A DNA stretch of 64,000 nt from Prostheceraeus crozeri (taxonomy: Eukaryota; Platyhelminthes; Polycladida; Euryleptidae). Shown here piece after piece: positions 7,812-62,092 of the stretch. The stretch spans positions 124,001 to 188,000 of the forward strand of contig CAJQUW010006815.1 in assembly GCA_907163375.1 (NCBI GenBank), written 5' to 3'. Position 1 is the first letter of the stretch. Each line of letters begins with the position of its first letter. A program made the position numbers and the translations under genes. Under the pieces are notes generated by a model. That model was given only the letters and a program-made list of their open reading frames with translations. It did no database searches and was not told where the DNA came from.

Positions 7812-7886
7812 CGCGTCTTGGCGGATTGAACCACTGACCCCTTGTTGTCTAGGTCATCGTTCTACCACGTGAGCTATCAGTGCGAT
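7812..7886 (-). repeat. tRNA-like sequence (tRNA-derived SINE head or tRNA relic)
   Basis: On the minus strand there is an A-box-like TAGCTCACGTGG (7864-7875) and, about 35 nt later, a B-box GTTCAATCC (7823-7831) that fits the pol III consensus. Between them TGACC and GGTCA could pair as an anticodon-like stem. The T-stem and acceptor stem do not pair well, so this is not a functional tRNA. A tRNA-derived SINE is the likeliest reading. Confidence 0.4.
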
Positions 7887-36240: not shown

Positions 36241-39200
36241 GTAAGTTGAAGATTTCCTCTCTCATCTCCCTCAAACGTGTGGCTAATAGCATCTTCCTCA
36301 ATTTCAGGCATCTACTTCATCACCAAAGCCCTCTCTTCTCGAGGAAAGTTTAGAGTTGTTGAGTGAAGGTAGGTTGTAACAATACACTGAGACTTAAACA
36401 GAGATGATAGAATGATTTCTCTTTCAAGTGATGTGAGTTCCAGCTCAGGACTCTCGCGACAAGGCAACGAGTGGGAATGTGCTGACTGCGGACATATTTT
36501 TACAAGGAAGCACAGTCTCCTTCGACACATCAAACAACGTGTGTGTCAACGCAAAGCGGCATCAATCTCCGGAGGTGAAGTTGATTCTGACGATGACATC
36601 TCCTTTCCTTGTGATTTGTGCCCTCTTTCTTTTGATAGTCACTTTCAGCGATCTTCGCACAGACTTCAACACACGCATGCAAATGATCACTACACCAACG
36701 GTACCTCTACCATCTCCCTCATTAATGTTTCACATAATAATTTAGTACGCGACTACTGCATGGAGTCCAATACTCAAATAGTAGATTTTCCTGAGTGGCT
36801 CCTTCAAAATTCTAACATTAGCGAAGCGCTCTTCAACAATTTAGACAATTTTAGAATGAAGGCGCTCATCTACCTTAAACTAAAATAAATTAAAATAGAT
36901 TTTCAAACGGGTCAAGTGACGGAGAGAATACAGTTTCATGTTCCTTCCTCTTCCGCAACCGAAGTTGTAGACTGCGAGTCTTGGCTAAATTTTCACATTC
37001 AATGTTTAAAATCAAATGTAGATAAATTCAATCAACGCGACAGCGCTCTCATTTTTGATGGTGTGGACTCAGCCATATTCAAAATTTCCCTATTAGAAAG
37101 TCATGCAGCTCGAGGCACATTTAAACTACCAAAAACGTTGTATAATAAGAAAGCTGTCATCAATGTCGATTGTAAATCATAGTGTTTCAAATATGCAGTC
37201 CTATCCATCCTTCACTATAATGATATCAACGCGCATCGAGATCGCACCTATAGCTATAGACAGTGGGAGGATGAACTAGACTTTGAAGGTTGTGATAGTA
37301 ACAACATGAAAATCAAAAATGTAGAAACGTTCGAAAAACATAATCAGATTAAAATTGTAGTTCACGTGTGGGAGAAGGGGTTGAAGGGTGCCCGCTATAA
37401 TTCACGTTCAACTTGTTATGAACGTGTAGTCAACCTCTTATTAGTAAAACAAGATGATAGCGAGGAATGGCACTACTGTGGTATACCAAAATCTCTCGCT
37501 TGTACACTCACTTGGGGCACTCTAAAAGAGGTGAACATTTTGTATGCGACCGCTGCATCCGCTCCTTTTGGAGTAAAGATAAATTTGAAACTCACTATGA
37601 ATGGTGCAAGCGAGGCAGATTACAAATGGAACGCATGCCCAAAGATAAAATATTTTCACATAGGGATAATGGTGACGAATTAAGTGCCCTGCATGTCATT
37701 TACGCAGACATAGAATGCTACATTGATGATATCATCCACAAGCCAGCAGCCATATCCTGCTATGAAGTATGGCATGATCACTTTAGGAATAGACAAAACA
37801 AAATGCATACTTGGCAAGGTGAAGATTGCATTTCAAAATTTCTAGAATTTCTCGATAAAGCTGCCAAATTTCAGCAATCATATGATTCCCAATTGCAGCG
37901 TAAGTCACTACATATGTCAGATGAAGACAAACAAAGATTTGAAAGTTGCACATCCTGTCCTAAATGTCATAAAACGTTTGATGACGATAAAATTAAGAAA
38001 GTGCGTGATCATGATCACATCACTGGTAAATTTAGAAACGCACTCTGCTGCAAATGTAACTTTTCACTTAGGTTGAGACGTCGTGTACTACCCGTCATTT
38101 TTCATAACTTTAAGGGCTATGACAGTCATATGCTCATAAAAGGAGGGTTGAGCCAGATGAAATCGTGGCAGTTTAATGTAATAGCGCAAACGAGAGAAAA
38201 ATTCATGGCAATGACAGCAAAAGTACCAGTAAATAAAACTAAAGAAAATGAGGCAGTCTTCTTCGAAATAAAATTTTTAGACTCATTCCAATTCATGTCA
38301 GCGTCACTAGCTTCTCTCGTTCGTAATCTCAAGTTTCTTCCCCATAGTCAAACTTTGAAGAAACACTATCCAAACTTAACGGATGAAACAATCACTCGCG
38401 AAGGAGTCTTTCCTTATGCGTATTTTATCTCAATGTCTAAACTAAATGAAACAACCCTTCCTTCCATTGACAAATTCAAAAACGATTTGACGGGTCAAGA
38501 TTGTCCAGTAGAGGACTATGAACATGCTCAAGAGGCATGGTTAAAATTTGATTGTAAAACGTTTGGCGATTATATGATCGCTTACTTAGAATTAGATGTC
38601 ATTTTGCTCGCTGATGTCTTTCAGGAGTTTCGACGAGTGGCATTAGAAGAAGACAAATTAGATCCTGTCCACTTTGTCAGTCTACCAGCCATGTCCTTTA
38701 AATCAGCCTTTAAAATGGCTGGTGAGACCATCCATCTCTTATAAGACCCCGAGATGTATAACATATTTGAGCGCGGAATACGCAGTGGTCTCACATTTGT
38801 GAATAAAAAAATCTAAAACAGTAGGTAATGATCATATCCACCTAAAGTACTATGATCAAAATAATTTATATGGCAGTTCACTGTCTAAACCACTACCTCA
38901 CTCCGAGTTTAGTTGGTTAAATCAAGATGAGCTTGAGTATTACTCCAACCCTTCAAACATTCTGAAGATTCCAGATGAAGGTGATTGGGGATATTATTTT
39001 GAAGTGGATTTGATTTATCCAAATAGTATTAAAAATAAAACTGCTGATTTCCCACTCGCACCTGAATCTGGTGAAGTGACTGAAGATATGTTTTCACCAT
39101 TCATGTCACAATTTCATAATAACTTAACAGAGTGTGGACAGCCAAGGTACAAACCATGCCGCAAACTTTTACTCACCCAATATGATAAGAAAAATTATCT

Positions 39201-40203
39201 CGTACACTTCTGCATACTAAAATTCTATTTAGAAATGGGCATGCTTCGAAAGTCAGTTCACCGCATTATCAAATTTAGACAGAAAGCCTTCCTCAAACCC
39301 TACATAGATAGTAACAGTCAAAAACGTGCACTCGCCCAAAATAATTTTGAAAAGGATTTTTATAAATATAAGAATAACAGTCTTTTCGGAAAGACCATGG
39401 AGGATGTTAGAAAACGTATGAACTACAAACTAGTCGTTGATGAACAAAAATATCACAAATTGACCTCATCACCTCTTTTCATTGATAGAGACATCATCGA
39501 TGAGGATCTTGTAGGTGTTAAAATGATAAAATCAGAAGTTGAGTTGTGCAAACCCATCTATATTGGGCAAGCCGTTTTAGATTATTCCAAGCTTGAAATG
39601 TATCAACTCTTCTACAAAATATTAAAACCATGCCCTCTCGTAAAAGAGGTTCGCTTGCTGGGTGGAGATACAGATAGTTTCTTTTTAGGAATTACCACTC
39701 AAAAAGATTTAAATTTTAATGAAGTAGGCAAGTCATTAGAAAAATATTTCGACACATCTAACTACAATCCCACTCATCCACTCTATTCCATACAGAATAA
39801 AGCCAAACTTGGTTGTTTTAAGGATGAAACAGCAGGAAAGGAAATAGATGAAATGATTCTCCTCCGTCCTAAAATGTATTCCATGAAAATAAGAGAATGT
39901 GCAGATAGTATTAAGCGTGATAAAGGTATATCAAAATCCATTGTTCACAAAATGAAACATCGGTCCTATAAGAAGGCCAATAAAAATAAAACTATAACGT
40001 TTGTCAATATGACAATCTTAAAATCTCAAGTTCATACTGTGAAAACGCACACGTTCAAGAAACGAGCGCTTTCAGCATGGGAGGATAAGAGGTGTTGGAT
40101 AGCACATAACACATCTCTTCCACATGGACATCCTGACACAAACATACCTCCACCCAAAAGAATAAAACTCACGCTACCACATTCAGGAGATGTATTGACA
40201 TAA
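36236..40203 (+). pseudogene. Protein-primed family B DNA polymerase (Maverick/Polinton PolB), copy A
   Basis: It would replicate the element from a terminal protein. A start codon at 36238 abuts a donor (ATG/GTAAGT); an exon at 36308 (ASTSSPKPSLLEESLELLSE) follows, then the main frame with two C2H2-like fingers (CADCGHIF..., CDLCPLSF...). Next come CFKYAVL, a finger (CDRCIRSFW) and exonuclease motifs YADIECY (37701), HNFKGYDSHM (38101) and YLELDVILLADVF (38581). CPKCHKTF...DHDHITGKF resembles the Zn/Endo VII-like insert of Polinton polymerases. Polymerase motifs are YYDQNNLYGSS (38848), NNSLFGKTMED (39370) and GGDTDSFF (39661), all with catalytic residues. It is disabled by TAA at 36886, TAG at 37180, a frameshift near 37490, TAA at 38742 and a frameshift near 38805. 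It ends with TAA at 40201. Confidence 0.85.
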
Positions 40204-40353
40204 TCAACTTGTACTCAGTATTTTGATGTTGCTTTTTGTAGATATACATGGTTGTTTTATGTATCGCATGAGATCGTTTCTTCCTTGTGAATATATGCCT
40301 ACAGTCAGCCCATTCCCCCTATATCTGTGAAAAGACTTTTTCATACACATATT

Positions 40354-40367
40354 TTTATTTCAATAAA
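40354..40367. terminator. Bidirectional poly(A) signal
   Basis: TTTATTTCAATAAA reads AATAAA on both strands and lies between the convergent PolB (plus) and LPSNAS-2 (minus) ends. Copy B keeps the same arrangement at 59240-59253 (TTTATTGAAATAAA). Confidence 0.6.
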
Positions 40368-40382
40368 CATATCACAATGACT

Positions 40383-41903
40383 TCACTTTGTTTTCCGAAA
40401 CACTAAAGTTACGATAGATTTAGTAACTTTCACATGGATGCACTCTTGTAAACCATTGGTAATTTTGATAGCAATAGAGGGTATAGTTTGTTTGACGACG
40501 GGATGATAGAAAATAGATTCAAACATCTTCTCGACTATTCCATATGAAGCGTCTTTATCATGAATGAAATCACGTAAAATGTATTCTTTTTTCTCACCAA
40601 CAGAAATAGGTAGAATCAAATCACTTTGAATGTAAAGGTGCTGTTCATGTTTATCAAGTGTCATTGGTGTTTCTATACCAATCGTATGCGCAGCAGTAAA
40701 CACAGTTTGTAGCATTGAAAAACCAAAGAGTTTTTTCACAATTTTACTCAATTGACATTGAATGTCATCACCCAGTTTCAGAACAACGCGTTGATTTTCA
40801 ATTGAAAACGAAATGTGGTGTGTCTTTACATCATATTTACTTTTCATCACATGCTTCAACTTCTGTTGTATATAAGGATTTACTACATGAATGAAGCTTT
40901 CAACTGTATGATATAGACGCGGCATTATATTGATAGCAACTTTAGATTCTTCATAAGACTGGTAAATTTTCTTGATGCGATCACCATAGATGTCCACCCA
41001 CCATTCATCATTAACTGAATCAACTTTAGTGTGATATTCATGAGAAGCATACACCAGACCGCTTCCAATAATAGGCGATACATGTCTTACAAAATGACGC
41101 AAGGTTGGAGAGAAATAAACTGTAAGTTTGTCATTATATTTCTGAATAACCAACTTATCCTTCCGAGCCATGACTTTCTCTCCATACTTCTTACGCACAG
41201 TCTCATTCCATCGTTTTACTAACTCAATAAGTGATAAAGGTTGAACACCACGCTTTTTCAAAATGATGCGTTCTTCGCATTATACAACATCTTCATCAAA
41301 TATTTTAAATTTATAATGAAATTTGTTGATTCGATTTGAATAAACTTGTTTAACATTTGCAGTAGCAATTGACGTTAGATGTAGTCCATGGCCAAAACCG
41401 AGATGTGGATAGAATTCATTATCCAACCTCAGTGTAAGACCTTTAGTAAAAGAATGAAAGCGAAGGAACTGTCTCCCACTCCAATGATAGATAGTAAACT
41501 CATGAACTTTCTGATCCTTATTCTTCATGATGGAAGAATTACCACTGTTGAATGCCTTAATAATTTTCTCATTCCCAAATGGACCATAATAATCTGATTT
41601 TATCTGAATCCATTCATAGTTCCACTTTCCATCTGACGTTAAATTGTATGGGAAATGGAATGTATTATTCATCGTTATTCCATCATGGGTGCGAGGAGTC
41701 AATATCATTTCTTCCAAATCAGTCACATTCTGAATATTGCTATCATAGCAAATACTAGAAACGCCAACCTCCCATTCACCTTCTAAATGTAGTGGGCGAT
41801 TTAATTCTACTCGATAGTCTGATGGTTTATTTTTGGGAAATTTAGTCATAGAAGCATTACTGGGCAAGTAGATTAGAAACGAGTCCTTATTTTCACTTTC
41901 CAT
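40383..41903 (-). pseudogene. LPSNAS-type element structural protein 2 (copy A), one in-frame TAA
   Basis: The minus-strand start MESENKDS at 41903 is shared with copy B. The N-terminal part has FLIYLPSNASM, FPKNKPSDYRV and LEGEWEVGVSSICYD, a pattern I know from uncharacterised Maverick/Polinton proteins of marine invertebrates. After TAA at 41280-41282 the same frame runs on (RGVQPLSLIELVKRW) and ends with HLYIQSDLI...VTLVFRKTK, the expected C-terminal end of such proteins. So one protein of about 505 residues carries one internal stop, which copy B also has at the matching place. The next ATG downstream is about 30 codons in. Function is unknown; a minor capsid, penton or fibre-like virion role is a guess. 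It follows LPSNAS-1 on the same strand. Confidence 0.65.
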
Positions 41904-41942
41904 ACTAATCACATTGGAAAAATATATTAGCATACTTTTGCA

Positions 41943-43339
41943 TTAACTCTTCATTCGGAAATGGAGTGTGATACTTGTCACAGCATCTTTATGAAAAGGA
42001 ATCAACGCACCAGCATCGTCATAAATGGCAATATCAATTTGTGGGATGTAGTTTGATTTCAGCTTTGTATAATGCACTTTCTTGAAAGTATGCTCAGATA
42101 AAATACTGCAGCTTTTTGGCTGGTATGGTATCATTGCTAGCAATGGAGCTTCAACATCTCCCACACGTACATCTTCACCAATATTGGAATATATCTGAAA
42201 ATAGTTAATACGACGCGATAGTGACATGTCTGCGCTAGCTTTGGTTACAGTACCACTTTTAAAGATATTTTGATCAAAACCCAAAATTTCCATTAGAGTT
42301 TTATCCATAATTAGTTCAATACCTTTTCCACTTATAGTGAGAGACAAAGTACCTTCTTTTTCAGAAAATGAAATATGTTGCTCATTAATCACTTCATTTA
42401 AATAATCTACAACCAATTTAACCGAAGTAATAATGCGAGGCATCAACACTCTTGTTTCATGTAAGATACCACTTAAAGGCTCTACACACTTTCTGTATAA
42501 AGATACGGTCCATTCTGCATCAAATTGATTTGACCTTTTACATGGTAAATGTTGCATATCAAATTTTCCATGAACAGCTGCAGAACGATGTCGTAAGAAC
42601 TGATGAAAATCTTTTGAACAAACTAATACTAGATCATCATCATTTAATTTACTTATTGCAATATGATTAGATGATTTGATATAAGTCAATGTTGCTACTT
42701 GTTTACCATCAACTCGAAGGAGATAATTAAATTTCTTCAATAATGTTTCAGGAGTCATGTTTGTCTTTCTTGGCTTAATCACAATCTTTTTCACCAACGT
42801 CTTCTCATTTTTTGGAATAAGATCTACATAATAAGCTTCCTCTCGATATATTAACTGTTTATGACCACTTGGGTGGTAATTAACGTTATAATTATCATAA
42901 CTTGTTAAGGCGCTAGCGAGGTAACCTAAATCATTTCTTAAACTTGGACTTAAACCAACAATCCAATCTTTCTCAACTACATGATGTACATAATTATGAT
43001 CATCATTGTGCGGAGTAAATTGGACAATATGTTTACACGCTTTATTCAGGAAATCATATATAAACTTTTTACATGATAAGAGATCTTTCTTTGGCTACTG
43101 TGGAATGTATACTCGGCAGCCTTTTGACATTGGTAAGCAGCTGTGCGTCTCATATTAATAGTCATCACCTCATCATCAAAAGTATAGACACAGTTGCTAT
43201 GACCAAGTTCAGTGACACCCACTTCCCACTTTCCATTTAGCTGTTGTGTATGATCAATGGGAGTAGAAAAGAGTGCGGCTCGATTACTAGCAAATCTATT
43301 TGCGGCCGCATTGCTAAGCAAAATATGATAAAACGACAT
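41943..43339 (-). pseudogene. LPSNAS-type element structural protein 1, frameshifted
   Basis: The minus-strand ATG at 43339 opens MSFYHILLSNAAANRF, with LNGKWEVGVTELGHSN, clearly related to the N-terminus of LPSNAS-2. That frame stops at 43046, but another frame is open from about 43075 down to 41943 and ends with GDVEAPLLAMIPYQP, QIDIAIYDDAG and VTSITLHFR, the typical C-terminal part of the same family. One frameshift near 43065 therefore splits a protein of about 465 residues. It is a paralogue of the next gene (LPSNAS-2), whose ATG lies 39 bases after this stop. A virion structural role is inferred from the family's occurrence in Mavericks only. Confidence 0.65.
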
Positions 43340-43374
43340 TTTGATATTGCTGATCTGCCGCTTTGCATAACATC

Positions 43375-43731
43375 ATGAAGACTTGGATTTTGGACTCTCT
43401 ACAATATATCAGAGTTGATCGTAATGGAAACGTACATTTCAAAAATTCTCATGGTCATACATCAAGAGGTATTACATTAACATGGCGACAATTTGTCAAC
43501 CTCAATGATATCATGAGGGATTTGGAATATTTTGAAACATTAAGATTCATCTCCTTGGGTGATCAAGTTTGGCTTCAACATTACAGAAATGAAATTCAAA
43601 TCTGCCATTCTCATTCCGCAAACTGTTTCTCATTTCGCAAATACAATTGGGAGAAGTATAGAAGATACATACATCGCTCCATCATGACATTTATTCGTCG
43701 TGAGTTCATCGCCCTACTTTGCAAATCTTAA
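43375..43731 (+). CDS. Small paralogous protein 1 (possibly PC4-like)
   Basis: 118 residues from MKTWILDSLQYIRVDRNGNV. The pattern SLQYIRV-DRNGNVHF, then RGITLTWRQFVNLNDIM, then VWLQHYRNEIQI and WEKYRRYIHRSI is repeated in the next gene, so the two are tandem paralogues. The GITLTWRQF..L step resembles the GISL..EQW..L core of PC4-type single-stranded DNA-binding coactivators, which occur in several large DNA virus-like elements. This is a weak structural guess. It starts 35 bases from the divergent minus-strand LPSNAS-1 start, so the two share a very short promoter region. Confidence 0.6.
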   Translation: MKTWILDSLQYIRVDRNGNVHFKNSHGHTSRGITLTWRQFVNLNDIMRDLEYFETLRFISLGDQVWLQHYRNEIQICHSHSANCFSFRKYNWEKYRRYIHRSIMTFIRREFIALLCKS

Positions 43732-43753
43732 TCAGACATGACTACCACGCACC

Positions 43754-44404
43754 ATGAGTTGGAATTTAGATTCCCTACAACGTATTGAAACGGATCATGA
43801 TCGAAACGTCTATTTCAAAGATTCAACTGGAAATGTGAGAAGAGAGTTTGCTTTATCTTATCGTCATTTTCAATCTCTACATCGTATCATGAAGGATTTG
43901 AAATACTTCTATATGAAAAGACATTCACGTATTGGAAATCGCATCTGGTTGCGCGTCAACAAACGGCGAATTCAACTCTATCATTCCCAACTTCATACTA
44001 ACTTCACATTTCATCAAGGTAGTTGGGAAGAGTATAAAAGGAAGGTACATCGCTCAATTTACTCATTTTTTCATCATGAAGCACCATCGCTACACCATCG
44101 TCAACATTCTCCGTCGCTTCAGACTCTACACCAAAATCGATCTCACAACATTACACCAACACCTTCCAAACAGCAAGTATTACCCGGGCCGTCCTCAAAT
44201 GTTAGTGGTGAAGATGAACAATTCACGGAATCTTCAACTCCTTCCAAATGGAACTGTACAGATTCTCGGCGCCCTTTCTCATTCATCGGCGCAGTCAATG
44301 CGCTTAGAGCTACAGAGACTACTACGTCGGATATGGAAGAGGGAGAGGTGTGTGATGTCGAATCTGACTGTGGACAATATGGTGATCTCTACTCAATTGA
44401 GTGA
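43754..44404 (+). CDS. Small paralogous protein 2 (possibly PC4-like) with disordered tail
   Basis: 216 residues beginning MSWNLDSLQRIETD. The first about 105 residues align with the upstream paralogue (REFALSYRHFQSLHRIMKDL, NRIWLRVNKRRIQLYHS, WEEYKRKVHRSI). The rest is low-complexity, rich in Ser, Thr, His, Pro and then acidic residues (MEEGEVCDVESD). This tail is encoded over 44076-44404 in a different frame from the TBP-like gene, which looks like overprinting. Gap to the upstream paralogue is 22 bases. Whether the tail is translated as read is uncertain; the N-terminal domain is well supported by the paralogue. Confidence 0.6.
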   Translation: MSWNLDSLQRIETDHDRNVYFKDSTGNVRREFALSYRHFQSLHRIMKDLKYFYMKRHSRIGNRIWLRVNKRRIQLYHSQLHTNFTFHQGSWEEYKRKVHRSIYSFFHHEAPSLHHRQHSPSLQTLHQNRSHNITPTPSKQQVLPGPSSNVSGEDEQFTESSTPSKWNCTDSRRPFSFIGAVNALRATETTTSDMEEGEVCDVESDCGQYGDLYSIE

Positions 44405-44621
44405 AAGTGTATCATTTTTGAAGATTCGTACCAGCAGTTACAATTTGTGTTATGAACCCGAACTTTTTCCTGCAGCTCTCATTAGTTGTTGGTTACCTGT
44501 GCATGTTGCAATCTTTCATAATAGTAAAGTGATCATTAGTGGACTAAAATCTCATGTACAAGCAAATGTGATCCTAGACTATCTCATCGAGTATGTACGT
44601 GCCCAGCGGATTGTAAAATAA
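44076..44621 (+). CDS. TBP-like protein (two-repeat TATA-binding fold)
   Basis: 181 residues from ATG 44076 (MKHHRYTIVNIL). Two repeats match the TBP saddle. The first has YTIVNI, KIDLTTLHQHLPNSKYYPGR and PNGTVQILGALSHSSAQS, like the NIV, YNP.RF and SGK..CTGAKS...SR parts of TBP repeat 1. The second has YEPELFPAALI then HNSKVIISGLKSHVQAN, like YEPELFPGLI and SGK.VLTGAK of repeat 2. TBP binds TATA boxes and nucleates transcription; an element-coded version could favour the TATA-driven element promoters seen at 31718, 33775 and 34298. The first 329 bases overlap the preceding gene in another frame. An open frame extends upstream to 43932 without matching TBP. The end is followed by AATAAA and a convergent minus-strand protease. 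Confidence 0.75.
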   Translation: MKHHRYTIVNILRRFRLYTKIDLTTLHQHLPNSKYYPGRPQMLVVKMNNSRNLQLLPNGTVQILGALSHSSAQSMRLELQRLLRRIWKRERCVMSNLTVDNMVISTQLSESVSFLKIRTSSYNLCYEPELFPAALISCWLPVHVAIFHNSKVIISGLKSHVQANVILDYLIEYVRAQRIVK

Positions 44622-44647
44622 AAAACAATTTTTCCAACATGATGTTT

Positions 44648-45109
44648 TTATTTCAAATCATGATAGAACTTACAAATCATTTTTTCATTAGAGGATGGAT
44701 TACATGAAAAGTTTTGAATAACAGATACAAATCGAGATACATGTAAACGTTTTAAGATGAAGTACAGTACAAAAGCACCACACGTTGATGAAAGTGGATG
44801 TTGTAGTATGCGTTCATTTCGCTGATATTGACGCGTATGTTTTCTCAACCACTTGTGTGTTGGTATATTTGGAGGTTGAGCAAGAGAGTCAAATAGTTCA
44901 CCACGTCGGTCTTCTCCAATAAAGATCGCTTTCCAATGCTCACCGCCTAAATTCTGCGAATGAGTGTTTAGCACAATAAAGATGGGATAGTGATTTACTG
45001 CAGGTGGTAAGGTATCGAGCGAATAGACATTATCGAAAGCTTTGAACGTCGCTTCGTCTGCATTACGCTGTACTTTAGTTTTAATTTCGTCAGCAGTCAA
45101 CCAACTCAT
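44648..45109 (-). CDS. Adenain-like cysteine protease (Maverick PRO)
   Basis: 153 residues. The catalytic set of adenovirus-type (C5) maturation proteases is visible: His58 in GGEHWKAIF, Asp74 in ELFDSLA, Gln103 in RILQHPLSS and Cys110 in STCGAFVLYFI. Family members cleave capsid precursors during virion maturation. The length is short compared with adenain but usual for Mavericks. The start codon overlaps the stop of the capsid-like gene (TAATG), so translation may be coupled or the two share one mRNA. The frame is intact. Convergent with the TBP-like gene; TTTATT just after its stop gives AATAAA on this strand. Confidence 0.85.
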   Translation of the reverse strand: MSWLTADEIKTKVQRNADEATFKAFDNVYSLDTLPPAVNHYPIFIVLNTHSQNLGGEHWKAIFIGEDRRGELFDSLAQPPNIPTHKWLRKHTRQYQRNERILQHPLSSTCGAFVLYFILKRLHVSRFVSVIQNFSCNPSSNEKMICKFYHDLK

Positions 45110-46385
45110 TAACGATTATACTGAAGAATCACGTCACGATACTTTGTAATTTCAATATTTGAATCAAAGACTGCATAAATTAATACATTGATCGTCTCAG
45201 GTAGTGTTCTTTTGAACGTCAAATCCAAACGAATATTATGAGGCACGTTCGCTTGACAACAGGGTGCACTAATATCGCTGTCAGCAGTCAAATCAAGTGC
45301 ATAAATAGTATATCCACTCTTAAACTCTTTCATAGTCAGTCCGTTGGTGTCATCCGTATTGTAAAAGCCAAAGACATCCATAAAATCAACATAACTGCGC
45401 ATAAATTGATCCGCAGCAAAATCTGGTTTGTAGGGTGGACCAGGATGACTCACACCATTTACACGTAAAGCAATTTCACTTAACTGATTGTGTTTAAAAT
45501 TGAAAGGATTATTCTTTATATTACCATTAAATGCATCATTTTCAACCATTGCCACCATGAGGAGCTTCGGTGCTTCCGATGGAAAGAGGCCATCTTTCAT
45601 GAAACTCTTTTGATCTTTCGGAATTGTAAAGGTGAGAAGCTTTGTATGCTGAACGACGTAAATGGCATTTTGGCGGTTAAGACCTTCAGCATGTCCTCTA
45701 ATGACACTTGGATTCGGTACTACTCGACGAATGTAAAGTGCAATATCTTCCACATGAATTCTAAAATTGTCAACTTTAGCAAATGCATTCAGCGCAAATT
45801 CAGGCTTATTCAATGTCAGCTTGAGTCGCATGCTGGTATTACAGAGTAAAAACTTTGACTGTCTAAAGAAGTCTAAATTCAGCGGACCATATAGCTGACA
45901 CACTTTACTATCTTTAATCATAGCAGATCGCTTTACAAAGCCACTGTTTGTTTCATCATCAAATTTTCCTGCTTCATCTCTGTACCATCCCATGGCTTCC
46001 ATATGACTTTTTTGTGCTGCTGGATGAATTTGTGATACATGATTGAAATATGCTTTATAGGGATAATCGCTTTGGCCTCCTTCCACCTGCTGCTCTCCAA
46101 TCGTTAGAGAAACATCGCGAAGTGATGTAGTCAATGGTAAATTGTTCATTCCAACTTTATGTGTATCGTCAATAGCAGCTCCATCTGCTTGCTGAATTCT
46201 AAACATCAAATCAACCATCGCATAACTCAAATCTATGTAGTCATCACTACCACCAGGAATAACAAATTCAATGGGGCCAGCATTCTCAGCTGTTCGAGGA
46301 TGATAATCTACAATACTTGAACTAAGAATATCTGTCTGTATGGCTTGTTGATCAAACAAACAAAACCGGAAGTTTTACACTCCAT
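45109..46385 (-). pseudogene. F54H12.2-type capsid-like protein of the Maverick
   Basis: About 416 intact codons. The N-terminal part has VDYHPRTAENAGPIEFVIPG and DYIDLSYAMV, followed by a long beta-rich protein with LRVNGV, PPYKPDF and a C-terminal DLTADSD...IRLDLTFKRTLPE. It matches the family annotated in animals as uncharacterised F54H12.2-like, found in Maverick elements, and I take it as the main capsid-type (jelly-roll) protein of this element. The frame has no ATG of its own: the likely ATG at about 46385 (MECKTSGF) lies in another frame, so one small indel in the GTTTGTTT stretch near 46360 is inferred. Otherwise intact. It ends in a TAATG overlap with the protease. Confidence 0.65.
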
Positions 46386-46387
46386 GA

Positions 46388-46843
46388 TTAGAAGTTATGG
46401 CAGCGTCGTCGTTTAGCGCCTGATGAATGATTAGAGCCTCTGCGACGTTTGCGTGAATGCCTTTTGACTGAAGATCGCACCTTACCAGCTCCGCAATGTT
46501 TCCTTCTTCCTTTATTCATTCGTTTAGGCGATTTCTTTCCTTGAGTAACACCAGCAAAGGTCTGCTTCAATGTTTTTAAACCGCGTTCCTTCCCACGATT
46601 CAACAAACTGCTCTTAAAACTTCTACCTCTGGAAAGATCACTAGCAACATCACCAGCAAAGCCACCGGCATTACTTAAAACATTTCGTTTTAAAGATCTT
46701 CCGACATTGGATATGAGAGGTGCTACAACAGATTTCAGTGCACCAAGTATGCTACCTCCACGTTGGCGGCGAGCGCCGATGTAAATTTGTCCTCCGCCAC
46801 TTACATAGGAGGGTCGTGAATAAAATGAGGCAGTTGGATTCAT
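46388..46843 (-). CDS. Basic virion core / pVI-like protein
   Basis: 151 residues. After MNPTASFYSRPSYV comes a Gly/Arg-rich start (GGGQIYIGARRQRGGS), an amphipathic segment (ILGALKSVVAPLISNVGRSL), then VASDLSRGRSFKSSLLNRGK and a strongly basic tail (KKSPKRMNKGRRK, RHSRKRRRGS, GAKRRR). This pattern of RQRGG plus amphipathic helix plus basic tail is usual for a small Maverick protein compared to adenovirus pVI or core proteins. It may bind DNA or disrupt membranes. The frame is intact and lies between the integrase and capsid genes on the same strand. Exact homology is uncertain. Confidence 0.6.
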   Translation of the reverse strand: MNPTASFYSRPSYVSGGGQIYIGARRQRGGSILGALKSVVAPLISNVGRSLKRNVLSNAGGFAGDVASDLSRGRSFKSSLLNRGKERGLKTLKQTFAGVTQGKKSPKRMNKGRRKHCGAGKVRSSVKRHSRKRRRGSNHSSGAKRRRCHNF

Positions 46844-46884
46844 AGCTCAAACCCTAAACATTGTTAGTTATAACTTTGCATGAA

Positions 46885-47430
46885 TCACTGTCGATCACTT
46901 AGATGAAAGATGTCGGCACGACGCATCCAAGAGTTCATACTTGAAGGATAACCAGTCCATTTAACAAGACACCATTCTTCACCTTGTCGTTTTTTACATC
47001 GAATGATTTTCTCTACCAAATATGTTTCACTTTCAGTGACTACCTCAATCTCATCGCGGTAAAAGCTACCCTCAATTTCTTCATTATCGTAATCTTTCAA
47101 CTTGTAGGTGGTGGGAGAGTCTTTTTGATCAATCCTTGATACTGTAAATACCTCCTCTGTCCAATTCGGAAGGTACCCTTTAGCAAAAACACTTTTCACT
47201 TTTGAGATACGAACTTTATCACCAATTTTCACATCACTTTTCACGTGAGTGCGTTTACGTTGGAATGATTCGCGCACTTTATCTACATTGTCAGCATTTA
47301 CATCTACTGGTCTGAGTCCAATAGAACGATGGATAGAGTGATTGTAGGCATGGAGTGTATCTTGTAGAACCTTTGTCCAATTTTGTGTCAAGTTGGCAGT
47401 AAAATGTCGCCACAAGCGATTTTTTACTGC
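46885..47430 (-). pseudogene. Maverick integrase with chromodomain, N-terminal part lost
   Basis: The minus-strand frame holds only the C-terminal half of a retroviral-type (DDE) integrase: KNRLWRHFTAN, YNHSIHRSIGLRP (the conserved end of the core), the SH3-like part (KIGDKVRISKVKSVF, GYLPNWTEEVF), then a chromodomain (YLVEKIIRCKK...WCLVKWTGYP, NSWMRRADI). The DDE catalytic residues and zinc-binding N-terminus are missing because a BEL/Pao LTR begins at 47431, inside the gene. Integrases of this kind insert Mavericks. The N-terminal half is not found elsewhere in the window, since the retroelement is itself truncated on its far side. Confidence 0.8.
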
Positions 47431-47694: not shown

Positions 47695-47784
47695 CGTTAG
47701 TGGAATTGAGATCAACTTCGGTGGACGGTGATCAACTATCGCAGCTCATCTTGTGTACGTGCTTACTACGAATCTACATGTACA

Positions 47785-48975
47785 ATGGACAGAGGAGCAA
47801 TCGTCAAGCAACGCGCATTGGTGAGAAGTGCATTGACTAGATGTATCAGGCGAGTTCATGATGGACTGAGTGAAAACGAAATTATCGCTATAGAGACTAG
47901 TCTTACTCGAGATTTAGATAAACTTGAAGGCCTTAATCAGGAGTTTCTACAGCTATGTGAGGAAGGAGATGTCGATGCAGAAGTGGATGCTTGTTTAGAT
48001 TACAGGTTAAGAGTCAAGACTGTCTTGTCTCAGTTAGATAATTTGAAAAAACCTAAATGTACGCCAAAAGTCGTGTCCACTTCTGAATCTACTTCTGTGA
48101 AGCTTCCCAAGTTGGAATTGCCCACGTTTTCGGGTAATAAGCTAGAATGGCAGGCCTTTTATGAAATTTTCGAAACTGCTATTATGAAAAAGACTTCATT
48201 GTCAGATGTGCAAAAGTTCGTGTACCTGCAGTCCTGTTTAAAAGGCCCTGCGAAAGCTGTAATTGGGGGAATGAGCCTGGCATCCATTAATTTTGATGTC
48301 GCTGTTGATTTGTTGAAAGAGATGTTTGGATCCTCCAAAAAATTTGTTTCTGATCATTTGCGAGCTCTTCAGTGTCTTTGCTGTAGATTTCAGTCGGTGT
48401 TGCATATGCATGAGTTCTTTGATTGTCTAACATTACATACTCGCTCTCTAGCAAACTCAGGAGTACGAGCTTCGTCATATGAAATGGTAGTTCTGCCATC
48501 TATGATATCGAAATTGCCGAATGATATAAAGTTAGCTCTATGCAGACGCTCAGGGGAGCAGATTGATAGGTTAGACGAATTCATGGCCTTATTCAAGATT
48601 GAATTGAGCATTCGAGAAACCATGGGAGAAAATTATTCGCTTTCTATATATCCGTTCTCAAAGACATCAAGTCCTTTCGCACAAGAGCATAAACGGCACT
48701 CGGCTATTGCTTTGTCTACAAGCGATAACATTGAAAACAAATGTTTAAATGCTAATGCCAATGCGAGTAATCCGTTCTGCATCTTTTGCGGAGGTAAACA
48801 CAAATCCTCTTGCTGTCATTACTCCCTTGAAGACAGAATTATGTTCCTGAGGAATGAGAAGCGGTGCTATGCTTGCCTTAAAACGAATCACGGTATCCAG
48901 AATTGCAAATTCAAAAGACTATGCAAAAAGTGTCCGCAGAAGACAATCCGTCCAAGACCGTCCATCATATTGCAA
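47785..48975 (+). pseudogene. BEL/Pao gag
   Basis: Begins MDRGAIVKQRALVRS. A helical N-terminus is followed by KLPKLELPTFSGNKLEWQAF, the classic BEL gag motif (DUF1759-like), a capsid-like segment ending with LPNDIKLALCR, then Cys/His knuckles (CIFCGGKHKSSCCHY, CYACLKTNHGIQNC, LCKKC). A frameshift around 48910-48970 leads from here into the protease frame. The frame is otherwise intact. It packages element RNA. Confidence 0.8.
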
Positions 48976-49568
48976 TATGCCCGACAGTCATCAAACGCAA
49001 AGATCCCTCGATCGGAAATACGATGGACCACAACGCCAGTGCTGTCGCTGCAAAGGGAAGGAACTCAGCTGAAGAAACTCAAAGCCGTAATCACGTGCTA
49101 TCGGTATCTGCATCCAGTCACTGGCAGGTGATGTTGCCATCGGCAAAAGTTATTCTGACTTCACCATGTGGAAATAAGGAACTTCTCGTGAAGCTTGTGT
49201 TAGATACGTGCAGCACAAGGAGCTACGTTCGACGTGACCTATGCGATCATTTAGGTATTGCGCTCGGACCTGAAGCAAGGTGGTCCATAGACACATTTGG
49301 ATCAGACGAACCAGCTTCGCACACTTCGGCGTCAGTGAATATCATGACAAGCAAACGGGATTCAGTGGAACGACTGTCCTTCGCGGCGTTTACTGTCGAC
49401 AAGATTTGCAGTAGTCAACCTTCACTTGATACAACGCGATTTCCTCATTTGACTGGATTAGATTTGGCTGATTCCTATGATGAAAGAGACGAGCATCTGG
49501 AGATTGGGATTCTGATCGGTGCTGACTATTATCCATCAAAATTATCCGTGATGACGCTCATAAACTAG
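48970..49568 (+). pseudogene. BEL/Pao aspartic protease region
   Basis: The frame open from 48903 carries VKLVLDTCSTRSYVRRDL, at the place of the BEL protease active site (usually D-S/T-G-S), so the Gly is replaced by Cys, which should damage activity. It ends with IGILIGADYYPS then a stop at 49566, where another frame takes over with VAVNSKLGWLIQGPV. A frameshift therefore separates it from RT. Confidence 0.65.
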
Positions 49569-50960
49569 TAGCTGTCAACAGTAAATTGGGATGGTTGATA
49601 CAAGGACCTGTATTACCACCAAACGTGTCGAATCCTTCAACGAATCGAACTGCAACCGTCATGATATGCAAATCATCTGAAGATCTCAGAAGTCAGCTCG
49701 ACAGATTTTGGGCTCTGGATCACATTGGCATTACTTCCAAGGAAACAGAAGAATCGACGTTTCTTCCGGATGTTCAATTCGTAGGCGGACGCTACACTGT
49801 ATCATTGCCGTGGAAGCAGCCGAAAGAAAATATACCACTCACATCAAATTATCACGTTGCGCTGAAACGACTAGAGAAAATGCACAGCAGCATAAAAGAG
49901 AATGAAGAGATGCTACATCAGTATCAGAAGATTCTTGATCAGCAATTAGAGACTGGAATAATCGAAGAAGTCAAGTCTACAGGGGAGAGAAGTTCTTCAC
50001 CCGTACATTACCTGGCTCATCGTCCGGTAGTTCGAGAAAAATCTGAGTCAACAGGAGTAAGCATTGTATACGACGCATCATGTAGAGAAGCCAGGAGATC
50101 ACCCTCTCTAAATGACTGTCTTAAGCAAGGTCCATACAGTCTTCCAGAGATTCCTGCCATGCTGTGCGCATTCAGATTACAACAGATTGGAATTACTGCG
50201 GACATCGAGAAGGCATTCCTTCAGATAAGGATACAGCAAGACGATCGCGATTCTCTACGGTTCCTGTGGTTGGATGCGAGTAACAAATTGAAGATATTTA
50301 GACACACGTCCTTGGTGTTTGGTCTGGTGTGCAGCCCCGCTGTTTTGGCGAGGGTCATTCATGAGCATCTACATCAGTTCAGTGACAAACATCCTGACCT
50401 GCTCGACAGAGTACAGAAGAATATGTACGTCGATAACCTCGTCACCGGATGTAAAACGTTCACAGAGGCGAAAGAGCTTTACTCTGTTTGCCGACACGTC
50501 TTAGCACTCGGAGGATTTAATTTCAGACAATTGGTAACAAGCCATAAGGAGTTGAACAAGCAAATCCAGACAGATGCAGATACTGATCCTAAGAAATCGA
50601 CTTCCGCATGCAAAGGAACGAACTCCATTGAGAAAGATTCGTTCGTTTCTAAGAGCCTTGGAAATGAAGAAAGCAATCCAGACAACACTGTCGCTGTTCT
50701 GGGAATTCCATGGAATCCAAGCGTAGACGAATTTACAATTGATTTCCAGAAAAAGAAGTTGATTCAAGGCATGATGACGAAAAGGACAATACTTCAAGAA
50801 GCATCGAAATTCTATGATCCTCTAGGATTGCTTGCCCCGACACTGATAATACCCAAGATCATCTTCCAAAGTCTCTGTGAGTCTAAAGAGTCATGGGACG
50901 CACCTGTAAATGAAGAGATCACGCTGAAGTGGAATACATGGATAACTGAAATAGTAGTAA
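49569..50960 (+). pseudogene. BEL/Pao reverse transcriptase, truncated
   Basis: RT reads VNSKLGWLIQGPV, then YHVALKRL, GIIEEVKSTGE, VSIVYDASC, SPSLNDCLKQGP, ITADIEKAFLQIRI (catalytic motif A), FGLVCSPAVLARVI and MYVDNLVTGC. The last is motif C, where BEL elements have YVDD; the second catalytic Asp is Asn here. The connection domain follows (AVLGIPWNPSVDEF, SKFYDPLGLLAP). The sequence stops at about KWNTWITEIVV, after which poly-C terminal-type DNA begins. RNase H, integrase, ENV if any, and the 3' LTR are missing. Confidence 0.8.
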
Positions 50961-52260
50961 GGAATCCTCCCAACTGCGCACAGCGCCCCCCCCCCTCTGG
51001 AGCGCGAGTTGGGTTGGTGTGGTTCTGGGTCGACAGGCCGGGTGTCTTGGTCGACCGTCGTGGTTGTTCTTGGGCGGCGGTCTTTGTTTTTGGTGTATAG
51101 GATTGGTGGTAGGGTTTCTAGATTTGGTTTTCTGATGAAATTCTGCGTCGACATGTTGTGTTTCTTGGGTGTAGGTGTGGTTTATGTATGTTTTTGCGTG
51201 TTTTTGAGTGAGAAAGTGGCTGTAGCGGCGAAACGAAGCCTCGTACGTGAAAATGGACGGCGGATTTGGACTTTTTGACCAATTTTGGGTATAGGAGACT
51301 TGTTTCCAAAGTCGTCGGCCAAAGAACGAAGAACTTCGACCCCCCCTCGGCAGCGTTTCTTCCAACTTTGGTTCTAGAGATCGTAGAAAGTCGTGCAATA
51401 GCTCGTTTGAAAGCTAAGAGTGCCACAAATTCACAGTTTGGCCCTATCTTTTATTGCTGAGGCTTGAGAGTGACATTGAAACTTTTGGTCATGTTAGAGA
51501 GCCGTCAGAGGTTGAGTTTTGTGTTTTGGGCTCCAGCGGGCGAACGAAGCATCGGACGAGAAAACTAAGACCTAGAGATGGCCTAGAGAAGACCTAGAGA
51601 AAACTTTGGATCTAGAGATGGTAGAAAGTCGTGCGATGGCTCATGTGAAAGCTAAGAGTGAGAAAAATGCAGTGGAAAACATCATATGTTCATGGGTTTT
51701 GAGTGGAAAATGACTTGAAAATGGCAGGAATCTCCGAAAAATGACAGAGTTTGGAAAGTGTAGTTTTTGGATGTTTTGGGGTGAGAAAGGTCGTATTTCG
51801 GCCAGAAGGAGGGCTCGGATGGACTAACGGAGGTCAGATTCGGACTCTACGTGAAATTCTGGGTTACGGAGGTGATATCCAGCGGAATCGGAGAGAAAAA
51901 GTTCTGACCCCCCCCCCCTCCAGTCAGACTTCCAACTTTGGTTCTATAGATGGTAGAAAGTCGTGCGATTGCTCGTTTGAAAGCTAAGAGTGAGACGAAT
52001 TTAGTGGACGAAGCGGCTTGTCTCCACGTTCTTTCGTTGAGATGTGGGAGTGACTTTAAGATTTTTGACAATCATCGAAAAACGACTCGGCTTTTTCAAC
52101 TCGGCTTCTGGTAATCGTAGAGAGTCGAGGGATGGCTTAAATGAAAGGTGAGAGCGAGAAAACGTGACTGTCAAAATTTGAAGTCAATCGGAGCACTAGA
52201 ACCGGAGATAGAAGTGTTTATAATTTTGGATGATCGAGATTATGCCATCAGCTGATCGCC
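50960..52260. repeat. Terminal-type poly-C module region (element C)
   Basis: Related to 30690-31700 in the same orientation. It contains poly-C tracts (about 50988, 51341, 51908) and four recurrences of a module ACTTTGG-TCTA-AGAT..TAGAAAGTCGTGC followed by TTTGAAAGCTAAGAGTG (51363, 51600, 51935 and a weaker one at 52105). Open frames here (50891-51426, both strands) are low-quality and not called. It abuts the truncated RT. Confidence 0.55.
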
Positions 52261-57500: not shown

Positions 57501-57707
57501 AGCACGTTAGAAAGTAGACTGTACTGAGATCTAGGGATGTGATGGTCACATTAGAATTCAAGTGATTGAATGTCATCTTAATGAAGATAGAAATGTGTTT
57601 GTGGCTGCATGTGGTGCAAGTTTGGCTTCCCTTCATTCCATTGCATCATTTATCCTTCCCCTCTGCATTCCATATCCGAAGATGTGTTGCGGCCTTGGGA
57701 TCGTGAT

Positions 57708-59225
57708 ATGGAAAGTGAAAATAAGGATTCGTTTCTAATTTACTTACCCAGTAATGCTTCTATGAATAAATTTCCCAAAAATAAACCATCAGACCATCGA
57801 GTAGACTTAAATCGTCCATTACTTCTAGAAGGTGAATGGGAAGTAGGTGTTTCCAGCATTTGTTATGATAGTAATATTCAGAATGTGAATGAATTGGAAG
57901 AAATGGTATTGACTCCTCGCAACCATGATGGAATAACGATGAATAGTGCATTCAAGTTTCCATACAATTTAACATCAGATGGAAAGTGGACTTATGAATG
58001 GAATCAGTTAGAATCAGATTATTATGGATCATCAGATGAAGACAAAATCATTAAGGCATTCAATAGTGGCAATGCTTCTATTATGAAAAATAATGGTCAT
58101 AAAGTTTATGAGTTTACTATCTATGAATGGCATGGGAGACACTTCTATCGTTTTCACTCTTTTACTAAAGGCCTTACATTGAGGTTGGATAATGAGTTCT
58201 ATCCACATCTCGGTTTTGGACACAGTCTGCATCTGACATCAATTGCTACTGCAAATGTTACAAAAATCTATTCAAACCGAATAAGCAAATTTCAATATAT
58301 ATTTGAAATATTTGATGAAGATGTTGTATAATGCGAAGAACGCATCATTTTGAAAAAGCGTGGTGTTCAACCTTTATCACTTATTGAGTTAGTAAAACGA
58401 TGGAATGAGACTGTGCGTAAGAAGTATGGAGAGAAAGTCATGGCGGACAAAAATAAGTTGGTCATTCAGAAATATAATGACAAACTTACAGTTTATTTCT
58501 CTCCAACCTTGCATCATTTTGTAAGACATGTATCGCCTATTATTGGAAGCGGTTTGGTTTATGCTTCTCATGAATATCGCACTAAAGCTGATTCAGTTAA
58601 TGATGAATGGTGGGTGGACATCCATGGTGATCGCATCAAGAAAATTTACCAATCTTATCAAGAAACTAAAGTTAGTATCAATACAATGCCGCGTCTATAC
58701 AATACAGTTGAAAACTTAATTCGTGTCATAAATCCATATATACAACATAAGTTGAAGCAAGTGGTGAAAAGTAGATATGATGCAAAGGCACATCACATTT
58801 CGTTTTCAATTAAAAATCAAAGTGCTGTTCTGAAACTGGGTGATCACATTCAATGTCAATTGAGTAACAATTTGAAAAACTCTGGCTTTTCATTGCTACA
58901 AGATAAGTTTGCTACTTCATACACGATTGGTGTATGAATACCAATGACAATTGATAAACATGAACAACATCTGTACATTCAAAGTGATCTGATTTCACAT
59001 ATTTCTGTTGGTGAAAAAAAAGAATACATTTTACGTAATTTCATTCATGATAAAGACGCTTCCTATGGAATCGTTGAGAAGATGTTTAAGCCTATTTTCT
59101 ACCATCCTGTTGTCGAGCAAACTATCCCGTCTATTTCTCTCAAAATTACAAATGGTTTACATGAGTGCATCCATGTGAAAGATACTAAATCCCTCATAAC
59201 TTTAGTGTTTCGCGAAACAAGGTGA
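57708..59225 (+). pseudogene. LPSNAS-type structural protein 2 (copy B, inverted)
   Basis: Close relative of 40383-41903 on the opposite strand. It starts at the same MESENKDS codon and keeps FLIYLPSNASM, LEGEWEVGVSSICYD and the end part. It has the same TAA after FDEDVV (58329-58331) with the frame open on both sides, plus its own TGA at 58935-58937 (after TIGV). Homology with copy A begins essentially at the ATG: the 5' flank is unrelated. It is convergent with PolB-B, with the same palindromic poly(A) arrangement at 59240-59253. Confidence 0.7.
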
Positions 59226-59239
59226 AGTCATTGTAAAAT

Positions 59240-59253
59240 TTTATTGAAATAAA
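59240..59253. terminator. Bidirectional poly(A) signal (copy B)
   Basis: TTTATTGAAATAAA gives AATAAA on both strands between convergent LPSNAS-2B and PolB-B, as at 40354-40367 in copy A. Confidence 0.5.
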
Positions 59254-59470
59254 AAGATATGTATGAAAAGTGTTTTGAAGAAGTGTTGACAAAGTGGGAA
59301 AGTCTTTTCACAGATATAGTGGGAATGAACTGACTGTAGGCATATATTCACAAGAAAGTGCAATCTAAAGCGATACATAAAGCAACAATGAATATCAACA
59401 AAAAACATCATCAAAATACTGATTTAATAATGAATCTATTTACACATCTCCTGAATGTGGTAGTGTGAGT
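59254..59470. other. Intergenic between convergent element genes
   Basis: Related to 40204-40353 of copy A in inverted orientation (for example GACTGTAGGCATATATTCACAAG). Non-coding. Confidence 0.5.
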
Positions 59471-62092
59471 TTAATTTTTTTGCGTGGTGATATGTTTGTG
59501 CCAGGATGTCCATGTGGAAGAGATGTTATGTCCTATCCAACACCTCTTATCCTCCCACGCTGAAAGTGCTCGCTTCCTAAATGTATGAGTTTTCACCTCA
59601 TGTATCTTTGATCTTAAGATGCTCATGTTGACGAACGTTATGTTCTTTTTTATGTAGACCATCTTATAGGCCCTATGTTTCATATTTACAACAATCGATT
59701 TAGATATGCCTTTTGCGCGCTTAATACTGTCACTGGAGTCTTTTGGTTTCATAGAATACATTTTAGGACAAAAGAATCATTTCCTTAATTTCCTTTCCTG
59801 CCATTTCATCTTTAAAGCATCCTAATTTTGCTTTATTTTTAGTAGAGTATAGTGGGTGATCTGTAGGATAATTTGATGTATCAAAATATTTTTCTAAAGA
59901 TTTTCCTACTTCATTGAAATTTAACTCTTTCTGAGCTGCGATACTTAAAAAGAAGCTGTCGGTATCACCACCCAGCAAACGCACGTCTTTAATTAGAGGG
60001 CATGGTTTTAATATTCTGTAAAAGAGTTGATACATTTCAAGCTTGGAATAATCTTACACAGCTTGTCCAATGTAGATGGGCTTGCACAACTCTACTTCTG
60101 ATTTTATCATTTTAGCACCAACCAACTTATCATCTATAATATCTCTATCAATAAAGAGAGGTAATGTCGCTAACTTTCGAAATTTATCATTACGATTCAC
60201 AAGTTTATAGTTTATACGTTTTCTAACATCCTCCATCGTCTTACCAAAAAGAATATTATTCTTATATTTATAGAAATCCTTTTCAAAATTATTTTGGGCT
60301 AGTGCACGTTTCTGGCTGCTACTATCAATATAAGGTTTCAGAAAGGCTTTCTGTCTAAATTTGATAGTGCGGCGAACTGTTTTTAAAATCATCCCCATTT
60401 CTAAATAACATTTTAAGATAGAGAAGTGGACTAAATAATTTTCTTTATCAAATTGAGTAAGCGAAAGTTTACGGCAAGGCTTATACTTGGGCTGTCCGCT
60501 CACTTCTAAATCTTTATGAAATTGTTTCATAAAGTCCGAAAACATATCTTCAGTCACTTCGCCTGATTCGGGTGCAAGTGGAAAATCCACAGTTTTATTT
60601 TTAATACTATTTGGATAGATGAGATCTATCTCAAAATAATATCTCCAGTCACCATTATCTGGAATAGCTAGTATGTTTGAAGGGTTGGAGAAATGCTGAA
60701 TTTCATTATCACCCAACCAGCTAAACTCAGAGTGAGGTAGAGGTTTGGACAGTGAACTACCATATAAATTTTTCTGGTCATAGTACTTAAGATGAATCTG
60801 ATCATCATCTACTATTTTTGATTTTATTTGATGCCTATTTACAAATGTGAGACCACTGCGAATTCCTCGTTCAAATAAATTATACATCTCTGGATCTTGC
60901 AATAGATGGATGGTCTCTCCAGTCATTTTAAAAGCAGACTGGAATGACATGGCTGGAAGACTGACAACGTGGATAGGATCTAATTTATATTCTTCTAATG
61001 CCACTCGTCGAAACTCCTGAAATACATCAGCCAGTAAAAATACATCTAATTTTAGATAGGCGATCATATAATCGCTAAACGTTTGACAGTCAAATTTTGT
61101 CCATGCAACTTGAGCATGATTGTAATCTTTTACCTTGCATTCTACACCAGTCAAATCATTTTTAAATTTGTCTATTGATGGAAGAGAAGTCTCACTAAGA
61201 TTAGAAATGTTATCAAAGTATGCATATGGAAACACTCCTTTGCGTGTGATGACTTCATCCGTCAAGTTAGGATATTGTTTCTTCAAATTTTGAGTTAGTG
61301 GAAGAGACTTAAGATTTTGAACGAGAGATACTAGTGATGAAATCATGAATTGATAGGAATCTAAAAATTTTGTCAAAATAGACATCTTATATACTTTTGC
61401 GGTCATGGCCATGAACTTTTCTCTCGTTTGAGCTATTACACTTAACTTCCGCTCTTTCATTTTTCCTAACCCACCTTTTATTATCATATGACTGTCATAA
61501 CCTTTGAAGTTATGAAAGATAACGGGTAGAGTACGCCGTTTCAGTCTCAGTGAAACATTACATCTTGTGCATAGCGCGTTTCTAAATTTACCAGTGATGT
61601 GATCATGGTCGCGTACTTTCTTGATTTTATCTTCATCAAACGTTTTATTACATTTTGGGCAGACTTAACAAATTTCAAACTTTACTTAATCATCTGCTGA
61701 CATATTCAATGATCTGCGTTGGAGTTCACTATCATATTTTTGCTGAAATTTGACAGCGCTTTCGAGGAATTGTAAGAATTTATGTATACCATCCTCACCT
61801 TGCCAGGCGTACATTTTATTATTTTTATTTTTGAAGTAATTATGCCATACCTCATAACATGATATGGTTGCCGCTTTATGGGTGTTATCATCAATATAGC
61901 GTTATGTCAGCATAGATGACACGAAGAGGACTTAATTCATCACCTTTCTCTCTATATGAAAACTCTTTATCTTTGGGCATGCATTCCATTTGCAGTTTAC
62001 CTCGCTTACACCATTCATAATGTGTTTCAAATTTATCTTTTGACCAGAAGGGGCGCATACAAAGGTCACATATGAAATACTCTCCTCTTCTA

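Follow-up and report, generated by a model that had tools for sequence, protein, structure and literature searches.

A TATA-binding protein homologue in a Maverick/Polinton-type element of the flatworm Prostheceraeus crozeri overlaps a neighbouring reading frame

Polintons (Mavericks) stand close to the root of many eukaryotic DNA viruses, and accounts of them usually centre on genes for replication, integration, and the capsid. A virus-encoded homologue of the TATA-binding protein (TBP), as found here, is also a feature of large DNA viruses, among them megavirus, the mirusviruses, African swine fever virus (B263R), and the poxviruses with their factors (PMC12768974, PMC11464507, PMC5825884, PMC12917281). 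TBP is present in megavirus (PMC11464507) and TBPs are core genes of mirusviruses (PMC12768974), and a TFIIB-like protein is reported from nearly every virus that carried a TBP-like sequence (PMC7221094). The TBP mimics of beta- and gammaherpesviruses, such as KSHV ORF24, provide a second parallel, namely a nuclear virus that uses host Pol II together with a promoter-recognition protein of its own (PMC12529657). In contrast to the large DNA viruses, the scanned ORFs of the element described here (in the window copy apart from ORF 43046-43339, and in sister copy L122) matched neither an RNA polymerase nor TFIIB, and unlike ORF24 the protein of the element is a TBP homologue recognisable by sequence. 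The sequence-only reading that preceded this work knew of no standard TBP among Maverick genes, and none of the papers that our literature searches brought up describes a Polinton TBP in its title or at the beginning of its abstract. Since subscription journals were mostly outside this search, the novelty is provisional. "TATA" and "TBP" do not occur as words in the main text of PMC4028283, PMC10328495, PMC11071308, or PMC11071296, and PMC7786948, the one paper found with "Maverick", "Polinton", and "TATA-binding protein" together, has the third term in a reference.

The window, i.e., the whole 64,000-nucleotide stretch of P. crozeri DNA that we analysed, holds the features listed in Table 1. 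Judged by its sequence, the element fits Maverick/Polinton through its family B polymerase and its chromodomain integrase, which it has in common with described Maverick/Polinton elements and adintoviruses; a probable adenain-like protease, whose match lies just under the cut-off, and a weak A32-like ATPase match would add to the resemblance. It differs from these elements in its TBP gene and the overlapping neighbour. This supports the earlier proposal of a TBP gene in a Maverick/Polinton-type element. Within the polymerase, the piece at 37467-38744 matched DNA_pol_B_2 (E 1.5e-6, 27.8 bits against a cut-off of 25.8), a class of the protein-primed type, priming itself being predicted, and also Endonuclease_7 (E 9e-6). 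The candidate capsid protein had no Pfam match above cut-off and no PDB or NCBIfam match, and a Pfam scan of ORFs 40383-41261, 41280-41933, and 41943-42797 likewise gave none above cut-off. The sister copy L122 (8 kb of the right side) carries an rve core (E 1.3e-10) and a Chromo domain in one frame, in addition to Pox_A32 (A32-type ATPase; E 0.026) and weak adenovirus core-protein matches that are both under cut-off. Similarity of the window to L122 ends at 47429, ~300 bases short of the first ORF of a BEL/Pao-type retroelement (DUF1759, RVT_1, Peptidase_A17; 47728-51100, plus strand) that lies near the truncated integrase. No long terminal inverted repeats were recognised in 28000-58000, and the long inverted pair belongs to the second element copy. 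Elsewhere in the window, a C2H2 zinc-finger ORF (36412-36888, plus strand; E 4.2e-6) directly precedes the polymerase, and an ORF for an amiloride-sensitive sodium channel occupies 8540-9487 on the minus strand (E 3.5e-28), the main sign within the window of an animal host.

Table 1. Coordinates of features in the window, with the evidence for each
Feature	Position	Strand	Evidence
TBP-like gene, 181 codons, two TBP repeats	44076..44621	+	Pfam PF00352, PDB TBPs, 44 relatives
Neighbour ORF, 216 codons: ~107-residue domain and low-complexity tail overlapping TBP	43754..44404	+	6 relatives, 5 with tail; synonymous-shuffle test
Dual-coding overlap, 329 nt	44076..44404	+	TBP in +1 frame relative to neighbour
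Paralogue of neighbour's N-terminal domain, without tail	43375..43731	+	40% identity
TATAAAA box, starting 43 nt before TBP ATG, within neighbour ORF	44033..44039	+	Sequence; locus comparison
Initiator-like TCATTTT, its A 11 nt before ATG	44063..44069	+	Sequence; locus comparison
Probable adenain/Ulp1-like cysteine protease	44648..45109	-	Peptidase_C48 E 0.00098 (19.4 bits, cut-off 20.7); Peptidase_C5 E 0.047
Candidate capsid protein adjoining protease	45109..46359	-	A guess from position
Small basic protein, possible core protein	46388..46843	-	Sequence; 97% identical in sister copy L122
Integrase C-terminal part with chromodomain	46885..47415	-	Chromo E 2e-7
Family B DNA polymerase, three open pieces in window copy	37183..40203	+	Pieces listed; Pfam on 37467-38744
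Four further element ORFs	40383-41261, 41280-41933, 41943-42797, 43046-43339	-	ORF list
Second partial inverted element copy, 81.7% identical to 37523-41904, without TBP region	57707..62092	-	Self-BLAST

The TBP frame is uninterrupted from its ATG through all 181 codons and contains YEPELFPA, SKVIISGLKSH, and PNGTVQILGA, the three motifs singled out by the sequence-only reading, which had taken it to hold two degenerate TBP-like repeats. Profile searches bore this out, with Pfam PF00352 (TBP) matching in two stretches at E 1.5e-17 and 63.7 bits, where the cut-off is 22.9. Ten NCBIfam models for TATA-box-binding proteins matched as well (E 1.3e-17 to 3.5e-5), all scoring far under their own curated, stricter cut-offs. 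Solved TBPs in the PDB matched from E 1.7e-11, and 35 of the 37 distinct PDB sequences at E <=10 came from TBP itself or from TBP fusions (ECU04_1440 being the sole label of one), the other two being weak TonB matches. A profile of the element-TBP family, compared with a profile of five cellular TBPs, aligned over 170 columns with a probability of 99.5% (E 2.3e-22). The single sequence retrieved 44 relatives from the protein database and the family profile 180 proteins at E <=0.001, with PF00352 present on all among the matches listed (120). Both the Pfam stretches and the profile alignment contain two tandem repeats. By sequence homology, therefore, 44076-44621 is a genuine, full two-repeat TBP homologue, and chance similarity to TBP was rejected by the Pfam, PDB, and profile-profile searches.

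To count copies in the host genome (2.05 Gb), we used a 35-nt TBP-promoter pattern with <=3 mismatches allowed, which matched at 5,728 places (2,939 + 2,789) against 0 for the control. These matches amount to a very large Maverick burst; as arithmetic only, 5,728 copies at a guessed 15 kb each would make up ~4% of the genome. Forty places were sampled from the head of the exact-match list (30 plus strand, 10 minus strand), with three plus-strand places left out (C83:275466, C92:243292, and C106:6007, all beside stop-free TBP frames), and 39 were scored, one being cut by a contig end. The ATG was present in all 39 and the TBP frame was intact in 28, so that homologous elements do not show stops throughout. 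The best 150 places by TBP score, a capped list chosen by that score, were all free of stops. For variant counts, nine of the 39 copies (<=84% identity to the window, ungapped) were set apart, and the 30 closer copies used differed from the per-site majority by a mean of 1.1%, which suggests that the window-type element spread recently.

A second, divergent lineage occurs in the same host genome. With P0005 as the query, 8 of the 30 loci cut out carried a TBP 42-47% identical to that of the window. At one of these, L081 (10 kb), the TBP gene has next to it, on the opposite strand, a polymerase with ~62% identity to that of the window, and it is overlapped by a neighbour in the way seen in the window. 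Nothing in the 10 kb matched the protease or the candidate capsid protein of the window. Thus, TBP accompanies the polymerase in two lineages with differing nearby genes. Upstream of the neighbour gene of L081 are five ORFs (5672-9837, minus strand), none with a Pfam match above cut-off, of which two pairs look similar by eye. A relative of the zinc-finger ORF (31% identity) lies on the same polymerase side in L081.

The element TBPs share with cellular TBPs of archaea and eukaryotes (PF00352) the two repeats, a length of ~180 residues, the C-lobe wedge phenylalanines, and the glutamates that contact TFIIB, and they have EPELFP as in eukaryotes, compared to EPEQFP in archaea. They differ in a proline at the F197 position, in a GRPxM motif in most rows, in a loop one residue shorter, and in their identity to human TBP, which was 24-28% for those listed. 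We compared residues across the family by aligning 32 rows to human TBP, whose numbering is used here, and took F197 and F288 to be DNA-wedge phenylalanines and E191 to be a TFIIA contact. E284 was conserved in 31 rows (Asp in the remaining one) and E286, F288, and F305 in all 32, while the two Asn that start the repeats were present in every row with a residue there. The equivalents of E284, E286, F288, and F305 were also all retained in the 28 intact sampled copies. Within the N-lobe, the F197 position was Pro in 32/32 rows, E191 was Lys in 16 of the 17 rows in the group that includes the window, and at R235 the four most frequent residues of each group did not include Arg. The N-lobe signature residue R239, however, was Arg in the window lineage (28/28 sampled intact copies), so the loss of regulator contacts is incomplete. 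Not all four DNA-wedge phenylalanines are present: 31 of 32 rows have three, and the window copy has two, as it also lacks the second N-lobe wedge residue of the family, retained in all 28 intact sampled copies; the C-lobe pair was found in 32/32. Since TBP homology rests on the profile matches, we read this shortfall as divergence within the TBP family. Both E284 and E286 contact TFIIB, and E284R and E286R lower transcription, according to PMC7221094, which also gives the first glutamate position as kept by viral TBPs only ~40% of the time. Both glutamates were conserved in all nine IMG/VR viral TBPs of our alignment, which is no fair comparison since one of the two scan patterns, YEPE[QL]FP, demands them. 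As far as residue identities tell, TFIIB-contact residues are kept and parts of the regulator-binding N-lobe are changed.

The TBP gene has a textbook TATA box at -43. Among loci picked by TBP score, 58 of the 60 of window type and 6 of the 8 from the divergent lineage had TATAAAA at this distance, and the initiator-like site of the 60 window-type loci read TCATTCT in 46 and TCATTTT in 11. We take TCATTTT to resemble the initiator consensus, and its distance from TATAAAA to be Pol II spacing. Caution is needed on the conservation of the box, since the same bases code for a Tyr-Lys-Arg that the neighbour protein conserves in both lineages. Twelve starts with 150 nt upstream were also inspected, several of them mechanical TTG starts, and beyond the TBP gene a single TATAAA was found, at -54 of the ORF at 41261. 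Hence the earlier proposal of a TATA factor for the element's TATA-driven genes is partly supported: the TBP gene itself has the box, but only one other of the 12 starts does. Of 13 proteins with an N-terminal extension (the window's included), 10 have Ile-Lys at a constant spacing ahead of the start. This was considered as independent evidence for the TATA box but is given little weight, because it is confounded by the Trp-x-x-Tyr-Lys motif of the neighbour protein. A different motif, ATGC[AG]AA, occurs four times on the minus strand of 37300-47400 (46881, 43368, 41943, and 41280), each time 10-38 nt before an ORF start, and is possibly a late-promoter or junction motif.

On balance, we think it probable that the TBP homologue of this old Maverick lineage marks promoters for the virus and brings in TFIIB and Pol II of the host. 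By the mechanism that we infer, the protein would bind core promoters of the element during nuclear infection or reactivation, its own TATA box being the plainest candidate, would bend the DNA mainly by its better-preserved C-terminal lobe, and would then recruit host TFIIB and RNA polymerase II. The changed N-terminal lobe would bind host factors, TFIIA and Mot1 among them, less firmly, so that these promoters would be less well regulated by the host, and the TBP gene, with a TATA box of its own, may be early and possibly self-regulated. What we observed in favour of this reading is the homology, the two repeats, the linkage to Maverick-type genes in two lineages, the conserved overlap, the TATA box at a fixed distance, and the thousands of copies, to which the retained TFIIB-contact glutamates, the separate clade of the family, and the host's own TBP may be added; counting against it are the proline at the F197 position in 32/32 rows, the loss of a second wedge residue in the window copy, the Arg at R239, the few starts with a TATA box, the Tyr-Lys-Arg coding of the box, and a polymerase in pieces. 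It is unlikely, though conceivable, that the protein is instead a decoy that binds host TFIIB (or TATA DNA), forms no productive complexes, and dampens host transcription in infection. Such a decoy would suit the retention of the TFIIB-contact glutamates while part of the DNA-contacting N-lobe is changed; however, a pure TFIIB decoy would have no need of the repeat-start Asn and of three of the four wedge phenylalanines, which nearly all 32 rows keep. We hold even less likely a role as a DNA-bending architectural protein in replication or packaging rather than transcription. TBP lobes are also found in proteins outside transcription (PMC7221094), and TBP adjoins the polymerase gene in the divergent lineage, but this gives no reason for the TFIIB-contact glutamates to be conserved in 31/32 and 32/32 rows.

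Returning to the promoter-marking factor, the broader claim that it represents an old, previously undescribed TBP clade of animal Mavericks, serving as a promoter factor for host TFIIB/Pol II, escaping several host regulators of TBP, and so allowing a half-orthogonal transcription with neither polymerase nor TFIIB of the element's own, seems to us evenly balanced. A conserved TBP would mean that some Polintons also control transcription initiation, as giant viruses, mirusviruses, and herpesviruses do. The family would then be a small experiment of nature that separates the TBP surfaces required for recruiting TFIIB from those that serve regulation only, and the thousands of copies in one genome raise the question of whether an alternative TBP is a cost to the host or is put to use by it.

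To place the family, we computed a maximum-likelihood tree of 46 rows: the 32 family rows, human TBP, 6tb4 (which we take to be a fungal-type chain), three TBPs from archaea, and nine viral TBPs from IMG/VR. Twelve IMG/VR loci had been found, three of which (two duplicates and a fragment) were left out. A 100/100 branch separated all 32 family rows from the cellular and the nine viral TBPs, and thus the element TBPs are, in this sequence comparison, a deep clade of their own among the 46 rows. The tree program flagged long branches at L004, L008, L010, and P0117, and since the branches of L008 and of the family, both long, meet each other, the exact attachment of the family is uncertain. The host genome encodes a TBP of its own, with exons 85% and 86% identical to human TBP. 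A further host exon, 42% identical to human TBP (G000:C3829:151573-151923, plus strand), possibly belongs to a TBP-related factor. Scans of viral contigs gave no relative for the TBP family, the candidate capsid protein, or ORF 41280, and two scans of genome contigs gave none either; outside the host genome, therefore, the family is represented in this analysis solely by isolated protein records. The host TBP and the exon of 42% identity could each have been the source of a recently captured gene, whether TBP or TBP-related, that the element carries as a passenger. We regard this as very improbable because of the tree and the separate host TBP: the 32 family rows lie behind a long, fully supported branch (in a tree without TBP-related factors), and the element TBPs are 24-28% identical to human TBP as against 85% for the host's.

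More than half of the TBP gene sits within the reading frame of the neighbour, and the 329-base overlap with a low-complexity tail that had been read from the letters proved exact, being kept in relatives and in the divergent lineage. When the TBP codons of the window were swapped for synonyms, the neighbour frame remained open in 1 of 20,000 trials, with a mean of 8.36 stops, and a divergent-lineage copy treated in the same way stayed open as far in 18 of 20,000. The converse shuffle, with the neighbour protein fixed, was less striking (TBP frame open in 1,982 of 20,000 trials), yet the TBP frame is settled by homology. Six database relatives of the neighbour protein were found, five of which reach the tail, and the +1 frame of these five can encode 107, 99, 93, 89, and 85 of the 108 residues of the top-scoring TBP, compared to ~25 of 108 in the control of 30 shuffled tails per relative. 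In 7 of the 8 divergent-lineage loci, the neighbour frame continued without a stop for 113 codons into the TBP gene; the tail there had 32-38 of 109 residues in common with that of the window (7 copies); among the promoter-chosen copies, 33 of 39 retained the frame. Considering the shuffles, the +1-frame coding in relatives, and the open frame in divergent loci, the overlap of the two frames is, as coding sequence, kept in related elements.

The constraint on the tail itself appears to be loose. Between the two lineages (7 copies), third positions of TBP codons differed by 0.62-0.63 inside the overlap and by 0.55-0.57 outside; first positions had many changes too (0.45-0.49), third positions differing most. 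Since third positions differ no less in the overlap, the exact tail sequence would be only weakly constrained, and the neighbour frame exerts no visible restraint on TBP third positions. Among the overlap variants of the promoter-chosen copies, 12 were common to at least two copies, and 7 of these few informative variants were synonymous in TBP and changed the neighbour, against 3.0 expected; the 23 singletons were near the neutral expectation, as expected after insertion. Variants among copies picked by TBP score were set aside as evidence, such copies being biased toward good TBP frames. That the TBP frame is real and the tail a by-product of codon bias with no coding role would accord with the low complexity of the tail, its third-position differences, and the smaller number of neighbour relatives (6 vs. 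44 for TBP in the same kind of search), but we consider it extremely improbable, as the frame so seldom stays open by chance in either lineage and the tail is found in 5/5 relatives that extend to it and open in 7/8 divergent loci. One of the five neighbour relatives that reach the tail, P0045 of JGI source, is 96% identical and lies on a contig of 10,296 bases, and thus a close relative of the element exists in a JGI data set.
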